A DNA stretch of 64,000 bases from Actinomyces capricornis (GTDB taxonomy: Bacteria; Actinomycetota; Actinomycetes; Actinomycetales; Actinomycetaceae): assembly GCF_019974135.1 (NCBI RefSeq), contig NZ_AP025017.1:1178001-1242000 (forward strand), given 5' to 3'. Position 1 is the first letter of the stretch; every line of letters starts with the position of its first letter. Below the pieces are notes generated by a model. That model searched no databases. It was not told the origin of the DNA and saw only the letters and a list, made by a program, of their open reading frames with translations. The translations under genes and the position numbers were made by a program. Of the stretch, positions 11,398 through 64,000 are shown in pieces.

Positions 11398-13212
11398 ATG
11401 TCCTCCGCAGCCTCCATGCTGCCCGCGGCGGGCGCTTCCTCGCCCCCGCCCTCCTCACCGACGCCGTCCGCGTCGTCCCCCGGGCCGGGACGGGCTGATG
11501 CCGGTCCCGCCCGCAGCCGGGCCTCCCGCTCCACACGGGTGCGCCAGGACAAGGTGACCATCGGCATCGTCACCCTCGTGTCGGCGATCCTCGTCCTCCT
11601 GGTGCTCCTGCCCCTGGTGACGATCCTGTCCAAGGCCTTCTCCACCGGCGGCCTGGCGGTGCTCGGCGGCCTGCTGCGCTCGTCGAGCAACCGCGCCATC
11701 GTCGTCAACACGGTGGTCCTGGGCGTGGTTGTCGGGGCGGTGGGCACGCTCGTCGGCTTCTTCCTGGCCTACGTCCAGGCGCGCGTGGCGATCCCGGGCA
11801 AGCGCCTGCTCCACCTCATCTGCCTCATCCCGATCGTCTCCCCTCCCTTCGCGGTGGCCACGGCCTCGATCACCCTGTTCGGCCGCAATGGCATCGTCTC
11901 CACCCAGATGCTGGGGCAGCAGTGGAACATCTACGGCCTGCCGGGCCTGACCCTCGTGCTGTCCCTGTCCTTCTTCCCGGTGGCCTACATGAACATGCTC
12001 GGCATGCTGCGCAACCTGGACCCGGCCATGGAGGAGGCGGCCGCCTCCCTGGGGGCCTCGCCGTGGACGATCTTCCGCACGGTGACCCTGCCGATGCTCA
12101 TCCCGGGCTTCGCCTCCTCCTTCCTGCTGCTCTTCGTCGAGGCGATCGCCGACCTGGCCAACCCCCTGGTCATCGGCGGGGACTTCACGGTGCTGGCCTC
12201 GCGCGCCTATATCGCCATCAATGGCGAGTACAACACGGCAGCGGGAAGCGCCTACTCCCTGGTGCTGCTGGTGCCGGCGCTGCTGGTCTTCCTGCTCCAG
12301 CGCTACTGGGCCTCGCGCAGCTCGGCGGTCAGCGTCACGGGCAAGCCGACCGGCCGCATGCGCCTGGTGCGCTCCCCCCTGCCCCGCGGGCTCCTGGGCG
12401 CATCGGCGGGGCTGCTGGCCCTGTTCATCGTCTCGATCTACGCCACCGTCATCGTGGGGGCCTTCGTCAACATCCTGGGGGTGGACAACACCCCGACGCT
12501 GAAGAACTTCCAGTACGTGCTCTCCGGGATCGGCAACGACGCCATGATCGACACCACCGTCCTGGCCCTCCTGGCCACGCCGATCGCCGGGGTGCTGGGG
12601 ATGCTGGTGGCCTGGCTGGTGGTGGTGCGGCTGCGGGCGAGCGCCGGCCTCATGGACTTCCTGGGGATGCTGGGGCTGGCGGTGCCCGGGACGGTCCTGG
12701 GCATCGGCTACCTCATCACCTTCAATCGCCCGGTGATCGCGGGCAACCTCATGTTCATGCCGGCCCTGGCCGGGGGGAGCGCGGTCTTCGGGGGCGCGAT
12801 CGCCATCATCATGGTCTATGTGGCCCGCTCCATGCCCTCGGGCCAGCGCTCGGGGATCGCCAGCCTCCAGCAGGTGGACAAGTCGATCGATGAGGCCTCG
12901 ACGTCACTGGGGGCCTCGGGGCTGCAGACCTTCATGCGGGTGACGATGCCGCTCATCCGCCCGGCCTTCATCGCGGGGCTGACCTACGCCTTCGCCCGGT
13001 CGATGACGACCCTGTCCCCGATCGTCTTCATCACCACCCCCAAGACGAAGATCATGACCTCCCAGATCCTCGCGGAGGTCGACGCCGGCCGCTTCGGCAA
13101 TGCCTTCGCCTTCTGCACCATTCTCATCGTCATCGTCATGACCGTCATCGGCCTGACCAATCTTCTCGTCCGCGACACCTCGGTGACCTCGCAGGCGCGG
13201 ACGGGCCTGTGA
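11398..13212 (+). CDS. ABC transporter permease, two fused membrane domains (ferric type)
   Basis: A 604-residue inner-membrane protein with about 12 helices arranged as two homologous permease halves. Each half carries an EAA-type loop for ATPase contact: EEAAASLGASPW in the first and DEASTSLGASG in the second. The fused two-domain layout is typical of FbpB/AfuB iron permeases. The first 50 residues are a Pro/Ser/Ala-rich cytoplasmic tail. The ATG at 11398 has GGAG seven bases upstream; the open frame continues further 5' without a better start. There is a 202-base gap after the binding-protein gene, which is rather long for an operon and may hold a partial terminator, so that the binding protein is made in excess. 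Confidence 0.88.
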   Translation: MSSAASMLPAAGASSPPPSSPTPSASSPGPGRADAGPARSRASRSTRVRQDKVTIGIVTLVSAILVLLVLLPLVTILSKAFSTGGLAVLGGLLRSSSNRAIVVNTVVLGVVVGAVGTLVGFFLAYVQARVAIPGKRLLHLICLIPIVSPPFAVATASITLFGRNGIVSTQMLGQQWNIYGLPGLTLVLSLSFFPVAYMNMLGMLRNLDPAMEEAAASLGASPWTIFRTVTLPMLIPGFASSFLLLFVEAIADLANPLVIGGDFTVLASRAYIAINGEYNTAAGSAYSLVLLVPALLVFLLQRYWASRSSAVSVTGKPTGRMRLVRSPLPRGLLGASAGLLALFIVSIYATVIVGAFVNILGVDNTPTLKNFQYVLSGIGNDAMIDTTVLALLATPIAGVLGMLVAWLVVVRLRASAGLMDFLGMLGLAVPGTVLGIGYLITFNRPVIAGNLMFMPALAGGSAVFGGAIAIIMVYVARSMPSGQRSGIASLQQVDKSIDEASTSLGASGLQTFMRVTMPLIRPAFIAGLTYAFARSMTTLSPIVFITTPKTKIMTSQILAEVDAGRFGNAFAFCTILIVIVMTVIGLTNLLVRDTSVTSQARTGL

Positions 13213-13235
13213 GCCCGGCCAGAAAGGAACCCATC

Positions 13236-14423
13236 ATGACCCGTGCGACCAGCACGAGCGCCCAGCCCGGCCCCGGGGCGGGGCCCGCCCCACAGGAGAG
13301 CGGCCGCCTGTCCCTCGTGGGGCTGACCAAGACCTTCGGCCAGGGGCAGGGGCGGGTGACCGCCGTCGACCATGTCGATCTGGATATCAGTCCCGGGGAG
13401 TTCATCACCCTGCTGGGGCCCTCGGGGTGCGGCAAGACGACGACCCTGCGCATGATCGCGGGCTTCGAGGAGGCCACCTCCGGGCAGGTGATGCTCGACG
13501 GCGACAATGTGGCGGTCGTGTCGCCCAACCGCCGGCCGATGTCCATGGTCTTCCAGTCCTATGCGCTCTTCCCCCACCTGTCTGTGCGCGACAACGTGGC
13601 CTACGGCCTCAAGCTGCAGGGGATGCCTGCGGCACAGATGAAGGAGGCCATCGAGGTGGCGCTGACCTCGATGAACCTCACGGCGATGGCCGACCGCGCC
13701 CCCTCCCAGCTCTCCGGCGGCCAGCAGCAGAGGGTGGCCCTGGCCCGGGCCATGGTGGTGCGCCCCAAGGTGCTGCTCTTCGATGAGCCGCTGTCGAACC
13801 TGGATGCGAAGCTGCGCGTGAAGATGCGCCTGGAGATCCGGCGCATGCAGAAGCGCCTGGGGATCACCTCGGTGTATGTCACGCACGACCAGTCCGAGGC
13901 GATGGCGATGTCGGACCGGATCGTGGTGATGAACTCCGGGCGGATCGAGCAGGTGGACACTCCTGCGGAGATCTACCTGCACCCCGCCTCGGTGTTCGTG
14001 GCGGACTTCGTGGGGCGCGCGAACTTCCTGTCGGCGGATGCGGTGGGCCGGGAGGCGCCGGGCGCGGATGGCCGGGAGCGGGCCCGGGTGCGGGTGCTCG
14101 GCGGGGAGACGACGGTGCCCGCCCACCCGGCGGCGCTGCGCGACCAGGAGGAGGTGGTGCTCATGGTGCGACCGGAGTCGGTGCGCCTGGAGGCCGTGGA
14201 GGATGCGCCCCAGACGGTCAGGGGATCACTGGGGCAGGTGATCACCTGCGTGTTCTACGGGGAGACCGTGGAGTACGAGGTGGAGACCGAGTACGGCTCG
14301 ATCGTGTGCGTCGTATCCGACCCGCGCCAGGAGGAGATGCTCTCCGAGGGGCAGGCGGTGCGGGTGTCCATCGAGGCCGACAAGGCCTGGCTGCTTCCTG
14401 CCGGGCAGAGCGCCGCCGCCTGA
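13236..14423 (+). CDS. ABC transporter ATP-binding protein (ferric/spermidine type)
   Basis: A 395-residue ATPase that powers the permease encoded just before it. Walker A is GPSGCGKTT at about 61-69, the Q-loop is in MVFQSYALFPH, the signature LSGGQQQR, Walker B VLLFDEPLSNLD and the switch histidine in VTHDQSEA. The C-terminal 130 residues form a TOBE-type regulatory domain. The ATG at 13236 has AAAGGA seven bases upstream and lies 23 bases after the permease stop codon. Together, binding protein, permease and ATPase form one complete importer of the FbpABC kind. Confidence 0.92.
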   Translation: MTRATSTSAQPGPGAGPAPQESGRLSLVGLTKTFGQGQGRVTAVDHVDLDISPGEFITLLGPSGCGKTTTLRMIAGFEEATSGQVMLDGDNVAVVSPNRRPMSMVFQSYALFPHLSVRDNVAYGLKLQGMPAAQMKEAIEVALTSMNLTAMADRAPSQLSGGQQQRVALARAMVVRPKVLLFDEPLSNLDAKLRVKMRLEIRRMQKRLGITSVYVTHDQSEAMAMSDRIVVMNSGRIEQVDTPAEIYLHPASVFVADFVGRANFLSADAVGREAPGADGRERARVRVLGGETTVPAHPAALRDQEEVVLMVRPESVRLEAVEDAPQTVRGSLGQVITCVFYGETVEYEVETEYGSIVCVVSDPRQEEMLSEGQAVRVSIEADKAWLLPAGQSAAA

Positions 14424-15589: not shown

Positions 15590-16216
15590 GAATGCGGGCG
15601 CCCCTGCAGGATGCGGGCGCGTACTTCACAGCCGGGGCGGTTCCTGGGCGGGGCCGTGGTGCAGATTGCCGGCTTGTCGGTGAATCGGAGGAGATCTCGG
15701 CAGATCGGAGAGGTCCCAGTGGTGCGAAGTACCGGCGATCTGCAGACAACCCCGGCAAACTGGGGCCGGCCCCACCGACAGCCGTGCCCGCACAGTGGCG
15801 TTCGCTCATACTCTTCGGCGATGGCGGTCAGGGAGGACGGTACCGGGGAGGTCGTGGATGAGCATCCGGCCAGATGACCTCGCCTACCGCCAGGCCCGTC
15901 AGGCGTGGAGCACCCAGCACCCCAGTTGCCCAGTGCTCGGCCGTACCGAGGTCAACCTCGCTGTCCTCCACCTCCATGGGTGGACTGCCTGGTTGTCGAT
16001 GGCCAAGTCATGGGCCCACTGGTGCCGCACCCGTTGAAGAAGACCTCACTAGAAGCGAGCCGTTCCCCTGAGCATCGACCACCAGAGCCCGTAGCCGTGG
16101 ATGGCTTTCGCTCCCGGATCCTTCGGTGAGGCAGGGGCACGACATCATACACACAATCCCTGCTGAGTCCCGGAGCATCCGGAACCACCAACGAGGAAGT
16201 GTCGAACTTCCGCCTA
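15590..16216. other. Degenerate stretch without a supportable gene
   Basis: Several short frames overlap here on both strands, none with a ribosome-binding site or family motif. The base composition falls from GC-rich to AT-rich towards 16.2 kb, as at the edge of inserted DNA. Confidence 0.5.
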
Positions 16217-16244
16217 TTTGCCTTTGACGTTCTCATGATATAAT
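16217..16244 (+). promoter_or_regulatory. Promoter of the DUF1801 gene
   Basis: TATAAT (16239-16244) is a perfect -10 box; TTTGCC lies 16 bases before it as a weak -35 box. The start codon is 44 bases downstream. Confidence 0.6.
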
Positions 16245-16287
16245 AAGAGCAGTTAAGTTATGCAGGACTCAAACACAGGAGGAGATC

Positions 16288-16638
16288 ATGGATCAAAAAG
16301 TAGAAAATCTGCTGGATGACTGGCACTTCGCTAATCCCACCTTGCACGAAATCGCCAATAGTGTGCGCATGAGAATACTGCAACTGGCGAACACAGTAGA
16401 CGAAGAAGTGAAATATGGCGGCATCCTGTTTGCAGCACCCGAACCGTTTTGCGGCATTTTCGTTTATAAGCAGCATGTATCTGTGGAATTTAGTCATGGC
16501 GCCGAAATAGTGGATCCACACGGTTTATTAGAAGGAAAGGGTAAAGGCCGTCGCCACTTGAAACTACGCACGCTTGAAGACGTAGAAAATAAGTATTTGA
16601 CAGATTACTTACGATTGGCGCAAGAAGCAGCAGCATGA
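16288..16638 (+). CDS. DUF1801 domain protein, AT-rich, probably acquired
   Basis: A 116-residue soluble protein that fits the DUF1801 (YdhG-like) fold: an N-terminal helix pair, EEVKYGGILFAA, FCGIFVYKQHVSVEF, the GLLEGKGKGRRHLKL loop and a C-terminal helix. Proteins of this group are small and mostly of unknown function. The ATG at 16288 has an excellent AGGAGGAG site five bases upstream and a clear -10 box. The gene is much more AT-rich than its neighbours, is flanked by two copies of a 108-bp repeat and is followed by a dead transposase, so it was most likely brought in by transfer. It has no operon partner. Confidence 0.85.
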   Translation: MDQKVENLLDDWHFANPTLHEIANSVRMRILQLANTVDEEVKYGGILFAAPEPFCGIFVYKQHVSVEFSHGAEIVDPHGLLEGKGKGRRHLKLRTLEDVENKYLTDYLRLAQEAAA

Positions 16639-16748
16639 AATAACAGTCTAGTGGCTCGTTTTTAAAATCCAACATCGCAGCCAAAGCTGCAGCACTATCA
16701 GATAGGAGCGGCCAATATATCTGCAAAACCTCTCAGGAACGAGCCGTC

Positions 16749-16960
16749 ATGGGTAGGGGTATCGCAGGCCTGAACAGAGCGCAGTTGAGCCGCCTGGTGG
16801 AATTGGTGGTGGGCGATAAGGGTATCGCCCTGGCACCAAGATTCCTCACTTTCCCTGACGGCCGTGCGGGCGACTTTGATGTATCTGCGCACCAATGCCT
16901 CTCAGGAGACGATCGCCGAGATCATGGGGGTCTCCCAGCCCACGATCTCGCGGACGATCG
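16749..16960 (+). pseudogene. Transposase remnant (IS5-like N-terminal HTH), frameshifted and truncated
   Basis: Two frames carry pieces of one protein. The first gives LNRAQLSRLVELVVGDKG and TFPDGRA; after a shift near 16865 the second gives ATLMYLRTNASQETIAEIM and VSQPTISRTI, the helix-turn-helix that opens many IS5-type DDE transposases. The rest of the transposase is missing: the coding match stops exactly where the 79-bp palindrome begins at 16961. No catalytic residues remain, so the gene is dead. Family assignment rests on the HTH only. Confidence 0.7.
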
Positions 16961-17039
16961 CGGTGTGGGGTGGGTGGTGTTTCTCGGACAGGGGAGATTT
17001 TCGTCCCCCTGTCCGAGAAACACCACCCACCCCACACCG
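16961..17039. repeat. 79-bp perfect palindrome (34-base arms, 11-base loop)
   Basis: The arms 16961-16994 and 17006-17039 are exact reverse complements with the loop 16995-17005. The arm begins CGGTGTGGGGTGGGTGG. It interrupts the transposase remnant, so it may be two fused ends of an insertion element or a small non-autonomous element. Confidence 0.95.
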
Positions 17040-44439: not shown

Positions 44440-45175
44440 ACGCCGAGCATGGCACATGGGGGTGACGCATAGGCTGGGAGCAGGCCCGGGTGGGCAGGTG
44501 CGGTAGCGGCCAGAGGCCCTCCTGCCGGACGCCGAGCGGCGGCATGCGCACCCGTCTCGGATTTACAGGGGTCGCCCGCAGCTCGCCGGGCCCGTCGGCG
44601 CCCTGAACGCCCACCCCTTCTCGAGTACGGACAATCGCCGCGCCACCCCACCGCCCTCACGCGCTCATACATGGCGATCCCCGAAGTAGGGTGCCATGCG
44701 ATTGGACGTCACTTCGCGACAACGGCGTCACTTGGCGACTTGGACGACACCTACAAGGGCCGTCCAAGTCGCCAAGTGACGCCCTTTCCGCTAAACGATG
44801 CCCAACGTGACTCCCGGGACCATCTCGAGCCTCTGGCCCTCCCGAAGGGCACGCACCCCCTGGCTCCCCGCCCCGGCACAGCCAACCGCTCGGCACGTCG
44901 GGCAGACGACCTGATAACCCAGCGTGCCGAGCAGGCATCCAGGGGTGGAGCATACGAGCCTGCGGATACGAGAGAGCTTCAGCCACATGGCAGAGCGATG
45001 CACTCTTCGTTCCATAACGACCCCCCCAGCCCCGACTGACAAGATCGAACATCAGGCGAACCAGTGATATCGTGACCCAATGCGGAGACGTGAGGCACAC
45101 CAAGGCTTACAGGTAAGATGATCCCACAACCCCATAACGACCTTCAAATACCCTCGGCGAACATGCAGAACATAT
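44440..45175. other. Gap without a gene, holds palindromic repeat copy 2
   Basis: GC-rich until about 44.9 kb, then AT-richer towards the HNH gene, as expected at the border of inserted DNA. Short frames here follow the palindrome and are not coding. Confidence 0.5.
44704..44844. repeat. Long palindromic repeat, copy 2
   Basis: The core hairpin has perfect 23-base arms at 44724-44746 and 44761-44783 around a 14-base loop. Flanks match copy 1 at 35262-35404, including ACGCCCAACGTGA-like sequence after the right arm. Confidence 0.9.
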
Positions 45176-45192
45176 AGAGGAGTACAGCCCCC

Positions 45193-46149
45193 ATGTCACC
45201 TCAACTATTGTACACAGCAGAAGAAGAACTCGACGCGCACTTGGCTGCCATGCAGTGGTTCGAGTCGCGGCGCATCGCCGGGCATGAACTCTTCACACAC
45301 CAAGATCTTATGGAAGGAATGATGTGGCACGGACACCACCTTCCGCTCACCCACCAAACCCAAGGAATCTGGAAGCCTAAAGGATTCGAATCGGCACTCA
45401 CCTTTAAGACGGTAGCACGATTACCCAACAAGGAGGCGCCATACGAAGATCGCATCGATGCTGATGGATTGCTCCGCTATAAGTTCGCCGATTCACCCAG
45501 TAAGAACTGGACGAATGAGGCCATGATCAATGCGGCCCAGCAGAATTACCCACTCGCATGGCTGATAGGAGTAAGGCCTGGCAACATTCTATACTACTAC
45601 GCCCGCTTTCCCGTCTACATCGAGCGGGTCGATCATCGACGTCGAGAGTTCATCATCAGTATTCACGAGACGGTTCTGGAGCACACAGGAATCAGTAACC
45701 AAGAGCCACCCATGATCGAACGCAAGTACGTATCCCGTTGGACAAGAGCCCGCGTTCACCAACACGATTTTCGCGAGCACGTCATTAGCGCTTACGAGAT
45801 CTCTTGCGCCATCTGCGACCTTCCGCATGCACAGTTGCTAGAAGCAGCGCATATCATTCCAGACTCAAAGGATTCCGGCATCCCCGAGGTCAGCAACGGC
45901 CTCGCACTATGCCGAACTCACCACACAGCTTACGATCGCAATCTCATCGGGATAGACCCGGACCACCGCATTCACGTAGCAGAGCGGGCTCAAAAACTAG
46001 AGAAGGATACTCGCCGCATCAGCCTCACTCCATTCAACAGGAGAGCATTAAGTCATGTTCCAAAAAACAAAAAACTGCATCCAGACCAGGGGCGGCTTCA
46101 TTCCAGGTTCATCAACTTCCTAGAGATAGAGCGAACAGTAAGTAACTGA
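45193..46149 (+). CDS. HNH endonuclease, restriction type
   Basis: A 318-residue protein. The C-terminal third is an HNH_2 domain: ISCAICDLPHAQLLEAAHIIPD, then NGLALCRTHHTAYDRNLIGID. Cysteines CAIC and C-x2-H can bind zinc, and the histidines and Asn form the nuclease site. The N-terminal 190 residues (FTHQDLMEGMMWHGHHLPL, LAWLIGVRPGNILYYY, PVYIERVDH) look like a DNA-recognition domain, as in HNH nucleases that cut modified or foreign DNA. The ATG at 45193 has GAGGAG upstream. The gene is clearly more AT-rich than the core genome, which suggests transfer. No methylase is adjacent, so a type IV-like or orphan nuclease is more likely than a complete R-M system. Confidence 0.85.
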   Translation: MSPQLLYTAEEELDAHLAAMQWFESRRIAGHELFTHQDLMEGMMWHGHHLPLTHQTQGIWKPKGFESALTFKTVARLPNKEAPYEDRIDADGLLRYKFADSPSKNWTNEAMINAAQQNYPLAWLIGVRPGNILYYYARFPVYIERVDHRRREFIISIHETVLEHTGISNQEPPMIERKYVSRWTRARVHQHDFREHVISAYEISCAICDLPHAQLLEAAHIIPDSKDSGIPEVSNGLALCRTHHTAYDRNLIGIDPDHRIHVAERAQKLEKDTRRISLTPFNRRALSHVPKNKKLHPDQGRLHSRFINFLEIERTVSN

Positions 46150-46907
46150 AAACCGGGGCCACGACCCCATCTGAACACCAGAGAATACCCCGAGCTTAAC
46201 TCACAGAAAATTTCCTCCGATACCGAGATCAGAACGCCCTCGACAAACATCGCAGCACCATCGACAGTTCCATAGTTCAGCCAACATCGGCTGCCAGATC
46301 CGGTTCGGCACCCCTCGTTCCGTCGTGCAGGGCCCCCTCCGTGCAAGCAAGCCTTAAAACTGATCGTGCTTGCATCACAGGAATCGAAGGAACCTTACCT
46401 TAATATTATCGGCCGATTCTATGATCGCGGCCACCAGAACGTCGATACGCCCCTTCAGATTGCTCTTTACCCTTCCACTATCTCGGATTCCCGGCCGCGC
46501 CCTCACTCACGCCCAAGTGCGACACTCTTGACCCACGCCACAGGACCGCCCCGACAGCGCCCGACAGCCAAGGGGTACGCCCGAAAGTAGGACTCAAGTC
46601 CCCCTTGTGTGGTATCATCTCGCACCCACTCCGGCTGCCGACCAAGCAGGAACAGCCCCTCACCGCTGGCCGGGCGCCGGAGCCTCAGGAGTCACTCACG
46701 AGCAACCCAGCATGCTATAGTTCCGGTAACGGCCTGCCCCTTGACCGAATCGGCTCAGGAGACCCGATTCCCTCATGAGCAGGCCACCACATTGCATGAC
46801 ACACAGTTCTCACTAAACACCCTGAGCGCCGTCACGTATCAACCCGGCAGCCCTCATATAGATCACATATCGAGCAGTGTTTGTGTGAACAACGCAGAGG
46901 AGCAAGT
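46150..46907. other. Gap without a gene (758 bp)
   Basis: Intermediate GC, several short frames without ribosome-binding sites or motifs. TATAGT at 46716-46721 may be part of a promoter for the prenyltransferase gene. The size suggests decayed or regulatory DNA; nothing more was recognised. Confidence 0.45.
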
Positions 46908-47651
46908 ATGAGCGATGTGACGAGCGCCGCGGACTATGATCTGATCACACAGAGCGTCGCTAATGGACGATTAAAGCACTTCGCCCTCACAGCCGATGGG
47001 AACGGGCGGTGGGCGACAACACAGGGCCTCAAGCGGTCCGTGGGCCACGAGGAAGGCATCCGCTCGTTCGTCGCCTGCCTCAATGTCCTGCGGGAACTGG
47101 GAGTCAAGTACTTCTCCATCCACGCCTTCTCCCCCGAGAACTGGGGACGCAACAACGCGGAGATCCAGTACATCATCGACCTCGTCCAGCGGGCACTGAC
47201 CCACCTGGAGCCCTCCTTCATGCGCGATCACGTGCGGTTCACCTGGGCGGGAACCACGAACAACCTCCCCGAATCAGTCGTCGACTTCTTCCACGGGCTG
47301 GAGGAGAGGACCGCCGGCAACACCGGCCTGACCCTCCAGTTCTGCTTCAACTACGGCGGTCGGCAGGAGGTCTACGAGTGCCGCTCCCAGTTCGAGGACG
47401 ACAGCATCGACTGGAACAGCCCCACCAGTAGATTCGGCTACCACCCCGACATCCCCCCTGTGGACTTCTACGTGCGCACCGGCGGAGAGCTCCGCATCTC
47501 CAACTTCCTCATCTGGCAGCTCGCGCACGCCGAGCTGTACTTCACCGAGGTCCCCTGGCCCGCGTTCCGCGAAGCCGAGCTCCTGGAATCACTGACCGAA
47601 TTCTGCACCCGGGACAGGAGCTTCGGCCGAGTGCCCGCCTCTAGGCAGTAG
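46908..47651 (+). CDS. Isoprenyl transferase (cis-prenyltransferase, UppS family)
   Basis: A 247-residue enzyme that adds isopentenyl units in cis to make polyprenyl diphosphates. Seen are TADGNGRWA with the catalytic Asp (usually MDGNGRWA), the block SIHAFSPENWGR (usually FSTENW), RTGGELRISNFLIWQLAHAELYF and the final WPAFREAELLESL. Small departures from the consensus and a position away from other cell-wall genes suggest a second, accessory copy rather than the housekeeping UppS. The ATG at 46908 follows AGAGGAG. It lies between an HNH nuclease and an AlbA_2 protein in a region of lower GC, so it may be acquired. Confidence 0.86.
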   Translation: MSDVTSAADYDLITQSVANGRLKHFALTADGNGRWATTQGLKRSVGHEEGIRSFVACLNVLRELGVKYFSIHAFSPENWGRNNAEIQYIIDLVQRALTHLEPSFMRDHVRFTWAGTTNNLPESVVDFFHGLEERTAGNTGLTLQFCFNYGGRQEVYECRSQFEDDSIDWNSPTSRFGYHPDIPPVDFYVRTGGELRISNFLIWQLAHAELYFTEVPWPAFREAELLESLTEFCTRDRSFGRVPASRQ

Positions 47652-58449: not shown

Positions 58450-58719
58450 CCACCGCCCCGCAGACCCCGGCAAGCAGAGCCGCGCCCGCCATCGGGATGC
58501 GCGCCGACTGGCACCGCCACCGGCAGGACGGACCCTCGGGGACCGCCTCAGAGGGCGTCCCGTCAGCCAGGTACCACAGGTATTCGCTGGCGTGCCATTA
58601 TTTACATTTATCCAGGTCAGGAGCCATTTGCTCGATCGGCGAGTAATTCTCTCCGAGCGCTGCGCAGGTTAGATCGGGTGGGAACATCGGAGCTGGTGGC
58701 AAGCCTTGGCCAGAAAGAA

Positions 58720-58780
58720 GAGCGTCGCTTGGCGGACTGGGCGTCGCTTCTCGGAGAGGACGTACCTCGTAGGTGTCGCC
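58720..58780. repeat. Diverged palindromic repeat, copy 3 (partial, inverted)
   Basis: In reverse orientation this segment aligns with the right half of copies 1 and 2, including GTAGGTGTCG and GGGCGTC-type arms. Mismatches are many, so the hairpin is decayed. Confidence 0.55.
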
Positions 58781-59275
58781 TTGGGCGCCGTGCACAGGAT
58801 CGCTAAGGAGTTACGGTGCAGCCCTGAGGCTGGGAGCTCCTGGGTCGAGAAGACCCAGGTCGATAGCGGCCTGGGCCCGGGAGCCACCATCGACGAGGCA
58901 GCCCGAATCAAGGGACTGGAGAAGGAGAGCCGAGAGCTGCGTCAGGCCAATGAGATGCTGCACAAGGCAAATGCGCACTTCGCCCAGGCTGACCTTGATC
59001 ACTGGTGGAGATCATCAACTCCATCATCGACGACAACCAACAGGAGCTCGAGGCCGGGCCGACCGAGCGTGACGGGGCCGGTCAACGTCGCCCGGTGCAC
59101 TGCCGAGCGGCTCATAGGCGCTCTGGGCCCGCTGCACGGCGTCAGACGCGCCGAGCCGCCCAGCACGACCCGCTCAGCATCTCAGAACCGGCGCCCGACG
59201 GACCTGGTAAGGCGCCGCTTCAAGGCCGTTGTGCCTAATGGGCGGTAGGTCGTGCACACCACCTATGTGCGTAAG
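58780..59275 (+). pseudogene. IS3-family transposase remnant (orfA and orfB pieces)
   Basis: The frame from about 58785 gives AVHRIAKELRCSPEAGSSWV, then ATIDEAARIKGLEKESRELRQANEMLHKANAHF, the leucine-zipper part of IS3 OrfA. After frame breaks near 59000 a piece of OrfB reappears in VARCTAERLIGALG and PTDLVRRRFKAVVPNGR. There an in-frame TAG replaces the usual Trp before VVHTTYVR. The integrase core with its DDE residues is missing. This dead element marks the left edge of the AT-rich island. The end points are approximate; no terminal repeats could be defined. Confidence 0.8.
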
Positions 59276-59294
59276 AAAACTCTTAAGATAACAT

Positions 59295-59300
59295 TATAAT
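59295..59300 (+). promoter_or_regulatory. -10 box TATAAT of the radical-SAM operon
   Basis: TATAAT within an AT-rich stretch (59280-59310), about 105 bases before the first operon gene. No convincing -35 box was found at 16-18 bases. Confidence 0.5.
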
Positions 59301-59325
59301 ATATATACCTCACATCCAAAGACCT

Positions 59326-59451
59326 ATGAATGCGATGCGTATCGAAGTATACTTAACCATCATGGTCAAAGACGCCATCTACTTGAGAGAGGCAGCCAGG
59401 TGGAAAAATGAGCGATTACATGCCCTTTCATGTTGTCTGGGCATTGACTAA
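59326..59451 (+). CDS. Possible small peptide gene (41 residues) overlapping the first radical-SAM gene
   Basis: An ATG at 59326 opens a frame of 41 codons that ends inside the next gene, in another frame. The peptide ends with LHALSCCLGID, and the last 15 codons are forced by the overlap. A peptide substrate is often encoded just before a SPASM enzyme, which is why it is listed. There is no clear ribosome-binding site, so it may be chance. Confidence 0.2.
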   Translation: MNAMRIEVYLTIMVKDAIYLREAARWKNERLHALSCCLGID

Positions 59452-60421
59452 TGCCTGCAACGTTAAGTGCATCCACTGCTATGCAGCATCCAAAAATAGA
59501 TCGCCGGACGAATTAACGACCAATGAGGTTCTTAATCACCTTGAGTTGCTTGCTCGAGACGGTCTACTTGATGTAGCATTTAGCGGCGGAGAACCCCTCC
59601 TGGTCCGCAGCCTGGAATGTATTGCCGAAAAAGCGTCAGATCTTGGGCTCACCGTCGGCGTCGGAACCAACGGATGGGCGCTTACTCCCAAGAGAGCCAA
59701 GTCGTTGGCCCAAGCCGGAGTGACGCGAATTCAAATATCTCTCGATGGGCTCGCACAAACCCACGACTCAATACGCGGACGGAAAGGCCTATTCGAAAAA
59801 TCTCGCAAAGCGATCGACAATAGCAAGGATGCCGGAATAACAACGAAGGTCTGCTTCACGGTACATCGATTGAACTGGCAGGAATTAATTCCTGCATTTG
59901 AATATGCATTATCTGCAGGGGTTGACGGGTTCAATTTATCACAATTAGTTCCGACAGGCCGAGGGAACACTGAAATCGACCTGGATCCACATGAATGGCG
60001 AGAGATCTTGGAATGGTGGGATTCCGCCCGGCGTGAGCACCCGTCGATTACCATGACTACCCACCTCGCTCAGTTGGCCATGGTGGCCCCTGATCTAGCC
60101 TGCAATCCGCTCTTCCAAGGGTGTCAGGCCGCGCGAGGACAGGGCGCAATTTCTCCGACAGGTGACGTTTATCCCTGCGTCGTACTTCCGTACAGTATTG
60201 GCAACTTACGAAAGAACTCTTTCAAATACCTCTGGAACAACTCTCCCACTGCAGTTAGATTACGAGACCGGAACCAATTGCTGGGACTTTGTGGCAAGTG
60301 CGTTTTCCGCGACAAATGCGGCGGCTGCCGTGCGACAGCATATGCAGTCACCGGAAATTTGATGGCTACTGACCCTCACTGCTGGATCAATAATCAAGCA
60401 AGTTGTGAGTCTGCATCATGA
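59408..60421 (+). CDS. Radical-SAM enzyme with SPASM domain (AhbD/NirJ/PqqE-like)
   Basis: A 337-residue iron-sulfur enzyme. The radical-SAM cluster site is TNACNVKCIHCY (CxxxCxxC) at about residues 17-24; the SAM-binding strands follow in VAFSGGEPLL, VGTNGWAL and RIQISLDGLAQTHDSIRG. The C-terminal SPASM part has CGKC, then DKCGGCRATAYAVTGNLMATDPHC, which bind extra clusters. The end CGGCRAxAYAxTG is shared with the NirJ/AhbD enzymes of heme synthesis and with peptide-modifying enzymes, so both tetrapyrrole and peptide substrates are possible. The ATG at 59408 has AGGTGG upstream. It overlaps the MFS gene by four bases (ATGA) and is far more AT-rich than the core genome. Confidence 0.9.
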   Translation: MSDYMPFHVVWALTNACNVKCIHCYAASKNRSPDELTTNEVLNHLELLARDGLLDVAFSGGEPLLVRSLECIAEKASDLGLTVGVGTNGWALTPKRAKSLAQAGVTRIQISLDGLAQTHDSIRGRKGLFEKSRKAIDNSKDAGITTKVCFTVHRLNWQELIPAFEYALSAGVDGFNLSQLVPTGRGNTEIDLDPHEWREILEWWDSARREHPSITMTTHLAQLAMVAPDLACNPLFQGCQAARGQGAISPTGDVYPCVVLPYSIGNLRKNSFKYLWNNSPTAVRLRDRNQLLGLCGKCVFRDKCGGCRATAYAVTGNLMATDPHCWINNQASCESAS

Positions 60422-61449
60422 AACGCTATAAATTTAGCCTACCGCACCAAGTATACTACTTGGCCGCCGCAACATTAGCCAACTCTCTCGGTACCTTCTT
60501 GCTGCCATTTCTTCCCCTATATCTTAAGTCGCTGGGAAATACTGAAGATGTAATCGGACTAACTATAGCATGTTACGGAATCGGCTGTCTTCTCTCGTCG
60601 CTCAGTGCCGGATGGATTTCTGACAGAATAGGTCGTAAGCCAATTATCTACGTCAATCTTCTTATTAGTTCCGCGTTAACGGGATGTATCGGTTTTGTAG
60701 CGAATACAGTCACACTGATTATCATTGTATTCGCTATTGGATGCTGTGCCGGGATGTCAAGACCAGCCTCCACTGCGCTAGTTGGAGACATTGTTTCAGA
60801 AGAAATGACTGCTGCTGCATACGGACTACTCTACTGGGCTGGAAATGCAGGATTCATTATCGCGTCTTTATTGGGGGGATTTATCGCTACTAAATCTTTC
60901 CTACTCCTATTCCTACTTGACTCAGCAACATGTATGACAGCCTTAATTTTGCTATTCTATGGTTTGTCATCGTTGCATGAATTACCTTCAGTTGAAAAAA
61001 CGTCTACGAAGCATTCGGAGACGTCAAGGCGTGTAACGCCACTACTATTCGTTATTTTGATAGCATTCTTCTCGTGGATGGTCCAAACACAGGCATGGAC
61101 GGCGCTTCCACTCACGGTTAATCGTTATGGATACAGCGCCTTTGACTGGGGAATACTCTCAGCAATAAATGGCGCTGTTGTGATCATCTGTCAGCCATGG
61201 GTCAACGTTCTCGTGAAGAATTGGGGGACTACGCTTTCGTTGGGAATCGGGTGTCTAATTCTAGGCATAGGCTTCTCGCTCACCATGGCGTTGGCTACTC
61301 TTATGGCCTTTATCCTGCAGACAATTTTCTGGTCTATAGGTGAAATACTCGTCGCAACAGCAGGTCCAGCGGCAGTATCCCAGTTGACAACCTCAGCGAA
61401 TCGAGGCCGATGGATGGGATACTTAGCTGCCGCATTTTCGCTGGCTAGT

Positions 61450-62543
61450 TGTACTTCCTCGGGAGGTTGTGAACGGGGTGGGTGGTGAGTGAAGGCCTCC
61501 GGCAGGATGTGGGTTGACACACTCGCATCACTGACCGGAGGCCTTCATGACCCACGCTAACGCACCACTGACCCCTGAGGGGCGTCGTCGTCTTGCTGTC
61601 CTGGTGGTCGAGCAGGGATGGCCCGTGCGCCGGGCGGCTGAGCGCTTCCAGGTCTCGCCGGCCACCGCCAGCCGGTGGGTGGGCCGGTACCGGGCCGGCC
61701 AGCCCATGGAGGACCGCTCCGCCCGCCCCCACCACAGCCCAGGGCGGCTGGCAAGGCGCACTGAGCGGCGCATCATCGCCTTGAGGTTCAACCGCCGGTG
61801 GGGGCCCCACCGCATCGCCTACCACCTGGGCCTGGCACGCTCCACAGTAGGGCGGGTCCTGGAGCGCTACCGCATGCCCCGCCTGGCCGAGGTGGACCGG
61901 GCCACCGGGCTGGCGGTGCGCCGCCCTGCGCCGGTGCGTTACGAAAAGAGTGCCCCGGGCCAGTTGGTGCATGTCGATATCAAGAAGCTCGGCCGCATCC
62001 CCGACGGCGGGGGCTGGCGCGCTCACGGACGTGGCTCAGCGCCCGCCCTGGCCGCGGACCGCGCCAAGACCCGCACCCGCCGCCGGGGCGGCCCGGTCGG
62101 AGGCTACCGGTACATCCACCACGCGATAGACGACTACTCGCGTGTGGTCTACTCCGAGATCCTGGCCGACCAGACCCAGGAAAGTGCCGCGGGGTTCTTT
62201 CAGCGCGCCAAGGCGTTCTTCGAGGACCTGGGCATCACTGTCGGCGCTGTCATGACAGATAACGGGGCCTGCTACCGCTCACGGGCCTTTAACCAGGTCC
62301 TGTCCGCAGCCGGCATCAAGCACCGCTACACCCGTCCCTACCAGCCGCAGACCAACGGCAAGGTCGAGCGCTTCAACCGCACCCTGCAAGACGAGTGGGC
62401 CTACGCCCACACCTACACCAGCCAGACCCAGCGCGAGACCGCCTACCAGGCCTGGCTCCACCACTACAATCACCACCGACCCCACACCGCCATCAACGGC
62501 CAAACCCCCGCCAGCCGCGTTCACAACCTCACAGGGAAGTACA
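61450..62543 (+). mobile_element. IS481-family insertion sequence, 1,094 bp, complete
   Basis: The ends are 26-base inverted repeats, 61450-61475 (TGTACTTCCTCGGGAGGTTG first) and 62518-62543, identical at 23 of 26 positions. The 6-base target duplication GCTAGT is at 61444-61449 and 62544-62549. One transposase gene with an intact DDE core lies inside. The GC-rich composition matches the host chromosome and not the AT-rich island, so the element jumped in after the island arrived. Confidence 0.95.
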
Positions 62544-62548
62544 GCTAG
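61547..62548 (+). CDS. IS481-family transposase
   Basis: A 333-residue transposase. The N-terminal HTH is GWPVRRAAERFQVSPATASRWV, followed by a second HTH (RWGPHRIAYHLGLARSTVGRVL). The integrase core gives the catalytic triad in VHVDIKKLG, AVMTDNGACY and QTNGKVERFNRTL, all present. The end is ASRVHNLTGKYS. The stop codon TAG lies in the target duplication and not in the element, so the exact C-terminus depends on the insertion site. GGAGG lies seven bases before the ATG. The gene looks intact and the element may be active. Confidence 0.95.
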   Translation: MTHANAPLTPEGRRRLAVLVVEQGWPVRRAAERFQVSPATASRWVGRYRAGQPMEDRSARPHHSPGRLARRTERRIIALRFNRRWGPHRIAYHLGLARSTVGRVLERYRMPRLAEVDRATGLAVRRPAPVRYEKSAPGQLVHVDIKKLGRIPDGGGWRAHGRGSAPALAADRAKTRTRRRGGPVGGYRYIHHAIDDYSRVVYSEILADQTQESAAGFFQRAKAFFEDLGITVGAVMTDNGACYRSRAFNQVLSAAGIKHRYTRPYQPQTNGKVERFNRTLQDEWAYAHTYTSQTQRETAYQAWLHHYNHHRPHTAINGQTPASRVHNLTGKYS

Positions 62549-62694
62549 TGTCTTATCACCAGTTACCGGCGGATTCGCATTGGAGAACAACCTCGAAATT
62601 CTCCTCTGGACAATGTGTGGAGCATTAGGTTGTCTAGGTTTTATTCTATCACTATTAACGAGGCACAGTAGTATTTTGAAGGAAGTGCAGCATC

Positions 62695-63837
62695 ATGAAC
62701 ATTAGCCGATATAGTATATTTACAGCTTCACCGCCACAAGAACCGTGGCATATCTATGTGCACATACCATTCTGTCCTCGAAAATGCCGGTTCTGTATGT
62801 ATTACACCATACGCTCCTATTCGGAGAGGACCAAAGAAGCGCTGTCAGAAGCGATAGTCAGCGATGTGAGAAACTATCGTGCTCTGAGCGGAACTGTTTC
62901 ACACGCTGTGTCCAGCATATACTTTGGCGGTGGAACGCCCTCAGAACTTAACGCAAAAAGAATATCTCAGTTAGTGCAAGAACTTCGATATTCCTTCCCA
63001 ATCGCAGATGATGTCGAGATCACTCTTGAAACGTTTCCAGACCTGGATACTGCGAGCGTACTTCGAACTTATGCCGACGCGGGAATTACGCGAATCAGTA
63101 TCGGAGTACAAAGCCTCGATATTGCCGTTCTCGAGGCCAGTCGACGACCAACGACTGGTTTAAGTAGGATTTCGGAATTAGTCGATGCTTGTCACTCTAC
63201 GGGACTGTGCGTGAATATTGATTTAATGTACGGTCTACCGATACAGGATAAAGCTAGTTGCTTGACCACACTGAATACTATCATCGATGCGCGGCCTGAC
63301 CACATTACACATTATCGTTGCGTAAACGGCCCATATTCAGCGGCCTTCCGATTACGCGAAATAGAAGTGTTTGACCGTATGACATCAGAGGAACTGATGA
63401 AGGTTGATGATGAGGCGCGCGATTTACTAATCAATAGAGGATTCCATGAATACGCGGCGGATCATTACGCAATTAGCACTAAATCGATCACTATCCACGA
63501 ATGCGGTGAATGGATGGGAGAATCAGTTTTAGGATTGGGGCCTGCTGCTATGTCATTTATGGGGAACACGCTTTTTAAGAATGCGCCAAATCTTGGTAGC
63601 TATCGCAAGAGTATGGATACTGGACGGGTTATAAAGCCAATCACGCTAAATCAGTCTGATACTGCGAGGCGGACCGCCATTCTTTGTTTAACTAAGTTAC
63701 TGAAGATAGACTTGAGTATACTACAAGATAGATATGGTGAGGACGCTAAGGGAGTTTGTGAGGAGATTCTGCGATTGCATGATTTGGGACATGTTAAAAA
63801 AAACCGCCCCAAATGTATATACTCCGCATCGAAATGA
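62695..63837 (+). CDS. HemN/HemW-like radical-SAM protein, C-terminus probably frameshifted
   Basis: A 380-residue frame. The family start HIYVHIPFCPRKCRFCMYYT holds the CxxxCxxC cluster site; IYFGGGTPSEL, ITLETFPDLD, RISIGVQSLD and NIDLMYGLP follow as in coproporphyrinogen-oxidase-like enzymes. The usual fourth Cys of HemN (CxC) is absent. Members make or break tetrapyrroles, insert heme or methylate peptides. The frame ends soon after an A8 run (63796-63803). With seven A it would continue to 63916 (VYTPHRNDIALIIFEL), which resembles the family's C-terminal winged part and would overlap the next ATG by four bases. The ATG at 62695 has AAGGAAG upstream and overlaps the MFS end. Confidence 0.85.
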   Translation: MNISRYSIFTASPPQEPWHIYVHIPFCPRKCRFCMYYTIRSYSERTKEALSEAIVSDVRNYRALSGTVSHAVSSIYFGGGTPSELNAKRISQLVQELRYSFPIADDVEITLETFPDLDTASVLRTYADAGITRISIGVQSLDIAVLEASRRPTTGLSRISELVDACHSTGLCVNIDLMYGLPIQDKASCLTTLNTIIDARPDHITHYRCVNGPYSAAFRLREIEVFDRMTSEELMKVDDEARDLLINRGFHEYAADHYAISTKSITIHECGEWMGESVLGLGPAAMSFMGNTLFKNAPNLGSYRKSMDTGRVIKPITLNQSDTARRTAILCLTKLLKIDLSILQDRYGEDAKGVCEEILRLHDLGHVKKNRPKCIYSASK

Positions 63838-63912
63838 TATCGCGTTGATCATTTTCGAGTTGGCTTCGTTCGAAAATTCTGAGATGACGCGGCGAGTTCT
63901 TACGGGGGCATC

Positions 63913-64000
63913 ATGAAGAGAGAAGTATCGCGTGCAAGATTTAGTCAAGAAGATATCAGACGCTGTGAGAAAGGAGGGTCCTCCAGACTAATAATTGATC
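63913..64000 (+). CDS. Start of a further operon gene, cut by the window end
   Basis: The ATG at 63913 follows GGGGG and overlaps the stop of the corrected second radical-SAM frame (ATGA). The 29 visible residues begin MKREVSRARFSQEDIRRCEK and are too few to name a family. Its coupling suggests that the operon continues to the right. Confidence 0.55.
   Translation, partial: MKREVSRARFSQEDIRRCEKGGSSRLIID

Follow-up and report, generated by a model that had tools for sequence, protein, structure and literature searches.

Organization of the Operon

The window, that is the whole stretch of 64,000 nucleotides of Actinomyces capricornis DNA that was analysed, carries at its right-hand end an operon of radical-SAM genes on the forward strand. 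The first-pass annotation had placed two radical-SAM enzymes and a transporter at 59250..64000. The SPASM, transporter and HemN-like open reading frames (ORFs) are indeed located there, with the 4- and 11-base overlaps it had reported, but the operon extends beyond 64,000 by a further ~2 kb, up to window-equivalent position 66,054.

The first gene encodes SPASM-A, a radical-SAM/SPASM enzyme of 337 aa (59408-60421; Pfam Radical_SAM 97 bits, SPASM 43.4 bits). Its stop overlaps by four bases the start of an MFS transporter gene (60418), which is present as a 5' piece at 60418-61449 and a 3' piece. The latter, read alone, spans 62550-62705 and stops 11 bases into the gene of a HemN-like radical-SAM protein of 380 aa (62695-63837), whose CX3CX2C motif reads CPRKCRFC. 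Starting at 63913, a gene for a class I methyltransferase-like protein of 224 aa crosses the end of the window and reaches the equivalent of 64587 (L005:11913-12587; for genes to the right of 64,000, the window position is the L005 position + 52000). The sequence beyond 64,000, to which the first-pass annotation had pointed as the place to look, holds the rest of this gene, followed by SPASM-B (L005:12615-13640), a PqqD-like protein (L005:13660-13965) and, as the last gene of the operon, a 28-codon ORF (L005:13968-14054).

The operon is part of a ~9.5 kb insertion, which is without counterpart in the relative closest by flanking gene and which also contains an AbiL-like pair. Its AT-richness, seen early on, is clear: the GC content of the operon genes is 0.45-0.52 versus 0.71-0.72 in the flanks, and GC3 is 0.42-0.52 in the five operon genes measured versus >0.91 in two flank genes. 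On the left, within the insertion, a degenerate IS3-like sequence was located by blastn (58706-59245, forward strand), in agreement with the IS3 remnant described before. The match is a distant one: 59% of the stretch is covered by Actinomyces oris plasmid DNA at 74.8%, annotated IS3 transposases match about a third of it or less, and its ORF has no Pfam match. No Rfam family reached the gathering score in the insertion, and no protease was found among the ORFs examined. The view that this is acquired DNA with a biosynthetic operon, as had been proposed, is supported.

Disruption of the Transporter Gene

The MFS gene is split by an insertion sequence at 61450-62543 (forward strand). This element has inverted ends and is flanked on both sides by GCTAGT, a duplication of 6 bp of the target (61444-61449 and 62544-62549). 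Together with a transposase that scores 359 bits with NF033577 (cut-off 224), these features assign it to the IS481 family. Four copies, the one in the MFS gene included, are present in the genome at 100% (rounded) identity. Because the target duplication is intact and the other copies are identical at this rounding, the insertion looks recent. The 5' piece of the transporter matches MFS_1 with 135.7 bits, a score obtained with a query running 36 bases into the IS481 element. The exporter that the first-pass annotation had proposed is not intact. Downstream, the HemN-like ORF stops short of the next gene while another frame is open up to that gene, and the C-terminal end of the protein may be altered.

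Since the MFS exporter is broken, this copy of the operon may be dead, and it is probably impaired. That it no longer works at all in this strain is quite possible, if somewhat short of an even chance: a multi-copy IS481 element splitting the transporter and a HemN-like ORF that ends before the next gene, with another frame open up to it, are what a dead remnant would display, but the remaining operon genes are open, the candidate precursor has a strong ribosome-binding site and the transporter insertion looks recent. Such a loss would concern this copy only and is compatible with the peptide-modifying role preferred below.

SPASM Enzymes and a Matching Locus in Indioceanicola profundi

The best NCBIfam match of both SPASM proteins is AhbD (TIGR04545), with 225.7 bits for SPASM-A and 231.6 bits for SPASM-B, below the cut-off of 500. 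The scores also stay below cut-off for the GeoRSP family (191.9 and 184.1 bits; cut-off 400), NirJ (TIGR04051; 171.2 and 165.3 bits; cut-off 515.45), MftC (TIGR03962; 145.6 and 165.7 bits; cut-off 265) and PqqE (TIGR02109; 121.2 and 146.1 bits; cut-off 381.35). Among solved structures, PqqE is the best match of SPASM-B (E 1.3e-24).

For both SPASM proteins, the clear best match is encoded at a single locus on plasmid NZ_CP030128.1 of Indioceanicola profundi. SPASM-B reaches 298 bits with Indioceanicola versus 176 or less in the 14 other matches listed (of 442 records), and SPASM-A reaches 272 bits versus 174 or less in the nine other matches listed (of 436 records). Compared directly, SPASM-B is 48% identical to Indioceanicola SPASM-1, and SPASM-A 44% identical to SPASM-2. 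Indioceanicola profundi is an ocean-sediment bacterium, not related to the Actinomyces host.

A tree of 43 rows joins SPASM-A to SPASM-2 at 96/88, a join flagged as a meeting of long branches, and SPASM-B to SPASM-1 at 100/99. Both SPASM proteins fall outside the NirJ, MftC, TIGR04053 and TIGR04347 reference rows, so that a position within NirJ or MftC, for which the first-pass annotation had suggested such a tree, was not obtained. The relation to AhbD was judged by score alone because the tree has no AhbD row. The four SPASM rows of the two loci are not united in a single clade (12% of bootstrap trees), and the SPASM-A pair stands weakly beside PqqE (58/16). By these comparisons, SPASM-A/SPASM-2 and SPASM-B/SPASM-1 are probable orthologues, and the pair probably predates the split of the Actinomyces and Indioceanicola loci.

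Next to SPASM-1 and SPASM-2, the plasmid locus encodes a PqqD protein (PF05402, 24.3 bits, above the cut-off of 23.4; GeoRSP family, 27.3 bits, cut-off 100), a SnoaL-like protein (SnoaL_2, 32.5 bits, cut-off 27) and a B12 radical-SAM enzyme, whose nearest NCBIfam family is ApyD (94.9 bits, cut-off 750). Co-occurrence of the operon genes in another genome, an expectation of the first-pass annotation, is thus partly borne out: the SPASM pair recurs beside a PqqD protein and a possible precursor in a single further organism, but the annotation of the Indioceanicola cluster lists neither a HemN-like nor a methyltransferase-like nor an MFS gene. Every NCBIfam radical-SAM match shown for the enzymes at the two loci falls short of its cut-off; if the pathway proposed below is right, clusters of this kind can escape family models. 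Genes annotated TIR and SIR2 adjoin the Indioceanicola locus, and the AbiL-like pair adjoins the Actinomyces locus. Both loci are thus beside defence-type genes.

Candidate Precursor and PqqD-Like Protein

The 28-codon ORF encodes MSFELVEQIEELDIVDLGDLALVAWQII and has a strong ribosome-binding site, GGGAGGTGAT, five bases before its ATG. Conserved short peptides beside the operon had been named as something to look for, and a peptide with a matching C-terminus at the Indioceanicola locus is what this ORF provides. The best match of its last 17 residues is the C-terminus of the Indioceanicola SnoaL-like protein, with a score of 43 versus 24 for the runner-up and 8 identities versus 6 or fewer, among 23,989 distinct stop-anchored 17-mers from 132 sequences; the 17-residue span was chosen after both tails had been viewed. 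The tails end in AWQII (28-aa peptide) and AWMVA (SnoaL-like protein), and both stop exactly three residues past Trp. Both loci share IxDLGxL and, further on, Ala-Trp. Because only two loci are known, conservation of the precursor is that of one pair. These sequence features make the 28-aa ORF a good candidate precursor. A 41-codon ORF overlapping the SPASM-A start (about 59327, by eye) was considered as an alternative precursor.

The tail match might be due to chance, the enzymes modifying another protein or peptide that is encoded elsewhere. Short ORFs are common, just two loci are compared, eight identical residues of 17 make a short match over a span picked afterwards, and tblastn of the 28-aa peptide against plasmids gave no match, Indioceanicola included. 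We consider this reading improbable, as the tail match stands alone among the stop-anchored 17-mers, both candidates adjoin the same gene set and end at the same distance from Trp, and the 28-aa ORF has its strong ribosome-binding site.

For the PqqD-like protein of the Actinomyces locus, neither Pfam nor NCBIfam gave a match, nothing sensible was found among solved structures, and modelling from the single sequence gave a poor result (pLDDT 47). BLASTP gave no alignment with Indioceanicola PqqD. When aligned, the two proteins share 23% identity, with a local score of 50 that was reached by none of 2000 shuffles (shuffle maximum 49) and a semi-global score reached by five of 2000.

HemN-Like and Methyltransferase-Like Proteins

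The HemN-like protein scores below the cut-off of each family compared: HutW, its best NCBIfam match (164.1 bits, cut-off 400), HemN (153.9, 324.95), STM4012 (143.3, 380) and HemW (142.5, 205.4). In a tree of 15 rows without a HutW row, its branch is long and leaves from a fork that the tree does not resolve. An identity as an extra HemW was rejected, the genome having a separate HemW-like relative (27% identity) that groups with the HemW-like rows of relatives and with named HemW; the HemN-like protein does not. The methyltransferase label is based on weak Pfam matches below cut-off. Solved-structure matches of this protein are designed SAKe proteins, without a single passing stretch, and its single-sequence model (pLDDT 35) is too poor to use.

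A tetrapyrrole pathway, in which AhbD/NirJ-type SPASM enzymes are accompanied by a HemN-like protein acting on porphyrin or degrading heme, is highly improbable: AhbD and HutW are the best NCBIfam matches, but at scores far below their cut-offs, in the tree neither SPASM protein falls among the NirJ, TIGR04053 or TIGR04347 rows (AhbD being judged by score), the related locus has a PqqD protein and the shared peptide-like C-terminus, and, the HemN-like one aside, no operon ORF examined favours a tetrapyrrole family over a peptide-type one. Of the two substrates suggested at first, a tetrapyrrole or a modified peptide, the peptide agrees with the short precursor candidate and the nearby PqqD-like protein; scores, tree and gene content speak against the tetrapyrrole.

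Distribution of Related Loci

SPASM-B at 1e-35 is matched in 99 of the 396 phylum genomes searched, the best outside its own genome being 9.5e-58 at 36%. At 29 short SPASM-B loci and one from genome G640, the PqqD, SnoaL, methyltransferase-like, HemN-like and B12 queries were unmatched at 1e-8. The A1 profile (two rows) at 1e-70 found only its own genome in 394 class and 396 order genomes, and nothing among 392 genomes from the G640 phylum, a search without positive control. In the matches listed for the SPASM-B and A1 profile searches, up to five candidates were scored per genome. The HemN-like protein matches 98 of 99 relatives, with 3.5e-38 as the best value outside its own genome, taken as HemW level; at 1e-45, only its own genome was found among 213 family genomes. 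A search of genome contigs with this protein gave two remote matches. Phages yielded 27 records (best 137 bits). Viral contigs gave no relative or, in a search from which 80 of 91 loci were kept, E 7e-14 at best. Against plasmids, the SnoaL protein matches only itself, the methyltransferase-like protein has no match and the B12 radical-SAM enzyme finds itself and 18 records, all below 60% identity. The NTF2/SnoaL term is absent among the matches listed for the open-licence literature. In the data searched, two loci of the SPASM pair type are known.

Proposed Pathway

The locus is, in our judgement with good probability, an acquired RiPP operon of an apparently undescribed type, in which the 28-aa peptide is modified by the SPASM pair. 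We infer a pathway in which this peptide would serve as the precursor. The PqqD-like protein would hold its N-terminal part (IxDLGxL), and SPASM-A and SPASM-B would oxidise the C-terminal tail by radical chemistry in the region of Ala-Trp; the analogues are PqqE, which makes a C-C cross-link, and MftC, whose reaction combines oxidative decarboxylation with closure of a ring. The HemN-like and methyltransferase-like proteins may add a one-carbon unit to the peptide, a B12-type radical-SAM enzyme taking the place of this pair in Indioceanicola. A host protease would cut the product free, and the MFS protein, where intact, would export it.

A further-reaching reading, which is tentative and as a whole rather unlikely, would make the SPASM pair and a C-terminal IxDLGxLxxxAWxx tail the hallmarks of a new RiPP class, the tail being borne either by a bare 28-residue peptide or by a SnoaL-fold carrier protein. 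The SPASM pair would cross-link the shared Trp or decarboxylate the tail. The carbon added would end up as a methyl group or in an indole-fused cyclopropane. Its source would be radical enzymes that can replace each other, namely the HemN-like and methyltransferase-like pair in one lineage and B12 radical SAM in the other. With defence-type genes beside both loci, the product might also have a role in bacterial or phage conflict.

If the RiPP assignment is right, the two loci would represent an apparently undescribed type in which SPASM enzymes work as a pair and the precursor tail occurs alone or fused to a folded SnoaL domain. There would also be a natural swap of two kinds of radical one-carbon enzyme within one pathway type, and chemists would gain a small, well-defined substrate that can be tested.

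Comparison with Known Systems

Mycofactocin (MftA/MftB/MftC) resembles the proposed system in its very short precursor and its SPASM enzyme, and MftC is among the nearer matches of SPASM-B. MftA is presented in an excerpt of PMC7491314 as a 31-aa peptide whose core is C-terminal and whose chaperone is a protein of its own. However, mycofactocin has one SPASM enzyme instead of two, the MftC rows are apart in the tree, its precursor ends in Val-Tyr and not in AWQII or AWMVA, and MftD/E/F are found where the present loci have HemN-like and methyltransferase-like or B12 radical-SAM genes.

PQQ (PqqA/D/E) likewise combines a short peptide precursor with PqqD and a SPASM enzyme. In the excerpted text of PMC10906245, PqqA is 29 aa long, with a separate PqqD chaperone and core residues Glu16 and Tyr20. 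The present operon differs in its two SPASM enzymes and its lack of a Glu-x3-Tyr core, and PqqB/C/F were not found among the ORFs examined. GeoRSP (TIGR04302/TIGR04303) is similar in pairing a SPASM enzyme with a PqqD-family protein, all matches being below cut-off.

For the one-carbon step, ApyD of the aminopyruvatide pathway is the nearest family of the Indioceanicola B12 radical-SAM enzyme, yet far below cut-off, and no MNIO and no P450 are annotated in that cluster; ApyD methylates the C-beta of a Tyr near the precursor C-terminus, according to a partial text of PMC10635010. In CC-1065/yatakemycin, a HemN-like and methyltransferase pair makes a cyclopropane (PMC9062424, in extract). The likeness, by description, is that a HemN-like radical-SAM gene adjoins a SAM-dependent methyltransferase-like gene, whereas the pair is here part of a peptide-type operon.

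Gene content and composition of the operon

The right end of the window (bases 1,178,001-1,242,000 of a 3.17-Mb genome, one contig) holds an operon that is apparently an undescribed type of RiPP operon (RiPP: ribosomally made, post-translationally modified peptide) with a candidate precursor. The three genes of the first-pass annotation are present at 59,408-63,837 and encode a radical-SAM/SPASM protein (SPASM-A), an MFS transporter and a HemN-like radical-SAM protein. Inspection of the DNA to the right of 64,000 revealed that the operon extends into further genes. In L005, the genomic locus reaching further right (window position = L005 position + 52,000, a checked conversion), these encode a 224-aa class I methyltransferase-like protein (11,913-12,587), a label that is weak, a second SPASM enzyme (SPASM-B; 12,615-13,640) and a 101-aa PqqD-like protein (13,660-13,965). 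Two bases after the latter lies the candidate precursor, a 28-codon ORF, MSFELVEQIEELDIVDLGDLALVAWQII (13,968-14,054), preceded by GGGAGGTGAT.

The GC content is 0.45-0.52 in the operon genes, against 0.71-0.72 in the flanking DNA, and climbs to 0.65 past the 28-codon ORF. GC3 is 0.42-0.52 in the five operon genes measured, compared with more than 0.91 in two flanking genes. Island region aside, the window is mostly at 0.67-0.79, with two other AT-rich dips (0.52-0.56) at 16001-17000 and 45001-47000.

A related locus on an Indioceanicola plasmid

One distant relative was found to share the operon core: a locus on plasmid NZ_CP030128.1 of Indioceanicola profundi. SPASM-B, compared by tblastn with 72,556 plasmid records, matched 442 of them; this plasmid was the best among the matches listed (48.3% identity, 298 bits), and the other 14 listed reached at most 176 bits. 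At a stricter limit (332 records, spread listing), the other 44 matches listed stayed at or below 164 bits. For SPASM-A, which matched 436 records, the same plasmid was again the best listed (43.6%, 272 bits), the other nine listed reaching at most 174 bits. Two genes lie between the two SPASM genes on the plasmid. Direct comparison gave 48% for SPASM-B with the plasmid enzyme SPASM-1, 44% for SPASM-A with SPASM-2, and 39% for SPASM-A with SPASM-B.

The plasmid locus also encodes a PqqD protein that scores above the PF05402 cut-off, a SnoaL_2 protein immediately upstream of SPASM-1, and a radical-SAM enzyme with a B12-binding domain at 29.8 bits, slightly under the Pfam cut-off of 32.1. The annotation of this cluster lists no HemN-like, methyltransferase-like or MFS gene. 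Elsewhere, no orthologue-level match was found outside the own genome in 396 phylum, 394 class and 396 order genomes (overlapping samples), in 392 genomes of another phylum (a search with no positive control), or in phages and viral contigs, nor for the HemN-like protein in 213 family genomes.

The candidate precursor and the common tail

The SnoaL protein ends in LQIEDLGHLSAMAWMVA and the Actinomyces 28-aa peptide in LDIVDLGDLALVAWQII. The last 17 residues before each stop were compared in six frames of 132 sequences (1.09 Mb; 23,989 distinct 17-mers). The two tails scored 43 with eight identities, against 24 with six identities for the next best 17-mer, the 17-residue span having been set after both tails had been seen. 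The pattern DLG-x(2,8)-W-x(0,4)-stop, set at the same stage, occurred in 46 loci only at the Actinomyces site (in two overlapping loci) and the Indioceanicola site. The whole peptide gave no tblastn match in the plasmids at E 10, Indioceanicola included, so the precursor link rests on the anchored tail comparison and the gene neighbourhood.

Relationships of the encoded proteins

A SPASM tree of 43 rows (the four SPASM enzymes of both loci, nine references, 29 phylum loci and one sequence from G640) joined SPASM-A with SPASM-2 at 96/88, a join flagged as long branches meeting, and SPASM-B with SPASM-1 at 100/99. All four formed one clade in only 12% of bootstrap trees, and the SPASM-A pair stood weakly beside PqqE (58/16). 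Both pairs lie outside the MftC, NirJ, TIGR04053 and TIGR04347 rows of this tree, which has no AhbD row. The first-pass annotation had proposed a tetrapyrrole or a modified peptide; a tetrapyrrole pathway is probably not involved, given the family cut-offs, the position outside the NirJ rows and the gene content, whereas the peptide half agrees with a RiPP-type operon. Its finding is worth keeping, with corrected content. SPASM-B lacks one C-terminal-cluster cysteine kept in Indioceanicola (SY, not RC, before GGCR), and its auxiliary cluster may therefore differ.

The Actinomyces PqqD-like protein matched no family, and BLASTP did not align it with the Indioceanicola PqqD. Aligned, the pair has 23% identity, with a local score of 50 against a best of 49 in 2000 shuffles and a semi-global score reached by 5 of 2000; its structure model is poor. 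In a tree of 15 rows, which excluded sequences L014 and L015 and contained no HutW row, the HemN-like protein has a long branch that leaves from a fork of uncertain order. Among solved structures, it matches HemN (E 1.4e-30) and, behind it, the methyltransferase NocN (E 2.3e-19). Another HemN-like/methyltransferase pair occurs on a plasmid of Rhizobium sp. CCGE532 (L158:272-1874), where a HemN-like gene of the STM4012 family and a class I methyltransferase gene overlap.

Acquisition and state of the operon

The operon is horizontally acquired. The left flanking HEAT-repeat gene was matched in 14 of 49 genus genomes, the nearest after the own genome being G034 (91%). There, the left match stops at L005 6,512 and the HEAT gene directly adjoins the right flank (L005 15,994 onward, 93%); the corresponding flanks are ~0.4 kb apart in G007 and ~1.6 kb apart in G010. 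The Actinomyces locus thus contains ~9.5 kb of extra DNA (L005 6,513-15,993), made up of an IS3 remnant, the operon and an AbiL-like pair. IS3-like DNA is common to the insertion and an Actinomyces oris plasmid, which together with the GC content suggests an Actinomyces-like host. A similar stretch of ~30-40 bp at both ends (window 58461-58520; L005:15986-16045) is a candidate attachment site or terminator piece.

The AbiL-like pair lies directly beyond the candidate precursor on the opposite (minus) strand (L005:13886-15894, window-equivalent 65886-67894; PADLOC AbiLi 243 bits, AbiLii 15.8 bits). On the Indioceanicola plasmid, annotated TIR-domain and SIR2 genes adjoin the related cluster (L046:16185-19282). 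Both known copies are therefore located beside defence-type genes.

An IS481 element, which has inverted ends and a duplicated 6-bp sequence (GCTAGT), occupies 61,450-62,543 and splits the MFS gene. The 3' piece of this gene, read alone, has an open frame up to 62,705 and covers the first 11 bases of the HemN-like gene; this accounts for the overlap reported in the first-pass annotation. Four genome copies of the element, this one included, are at 100% (rounded) identity, which suggests recent activity and makes the insertion probably recent. A gap of 75 bases separates the end of the HemN-like ORF from the next start codon (window 63780-63916), which another frame reaches without a stop; damage to the C-terminus of the HemN-like protein is possible. 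With the split transporter and this ORF end, the Actinomyces copy is probably impaired and may be silent or dead.

Proposed function and comparison with known systems

Gene content, the paired SPASM similarity and the common tail are seen directly; the chemistry we infer. The PqqD-like protein would bind the precursor in its N-terminal part, in the way that PMC10906245 describes for PqqD, which binds PqqA on behalf of PqqE. The SPASM enzymes would act on the tail, whose common Trp is the natural candidate site of modification. PqqE is described there as forming a Glu-Tyr C-C cross-link, and MftC as performing oxidative decarboxylation and cyclisation of a C-terminal Val-Tyr (PMC7491314). Export of the product would fall to the MFS protein, and its release would be left to the host, as none of the ORFs examined was seen to encode a protease.

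The HemN-like enzyme and the adjoining methyltransferase-like protein would add one carbon, a HemN-like/methyltransferase pair being credited with the cyclopropane of CC-1065 and yatakemycin (PMC9062424). The Indioceanicola B12 enzyme is a distant relative of ApyD, its nearest family (94.9 bits, cut-off 750), which according to PMC10635010 methylates the C-beta of a Tyr near the precursor C-terminus. This enzyme and the Actinomyces pair may fill one and the same slot.
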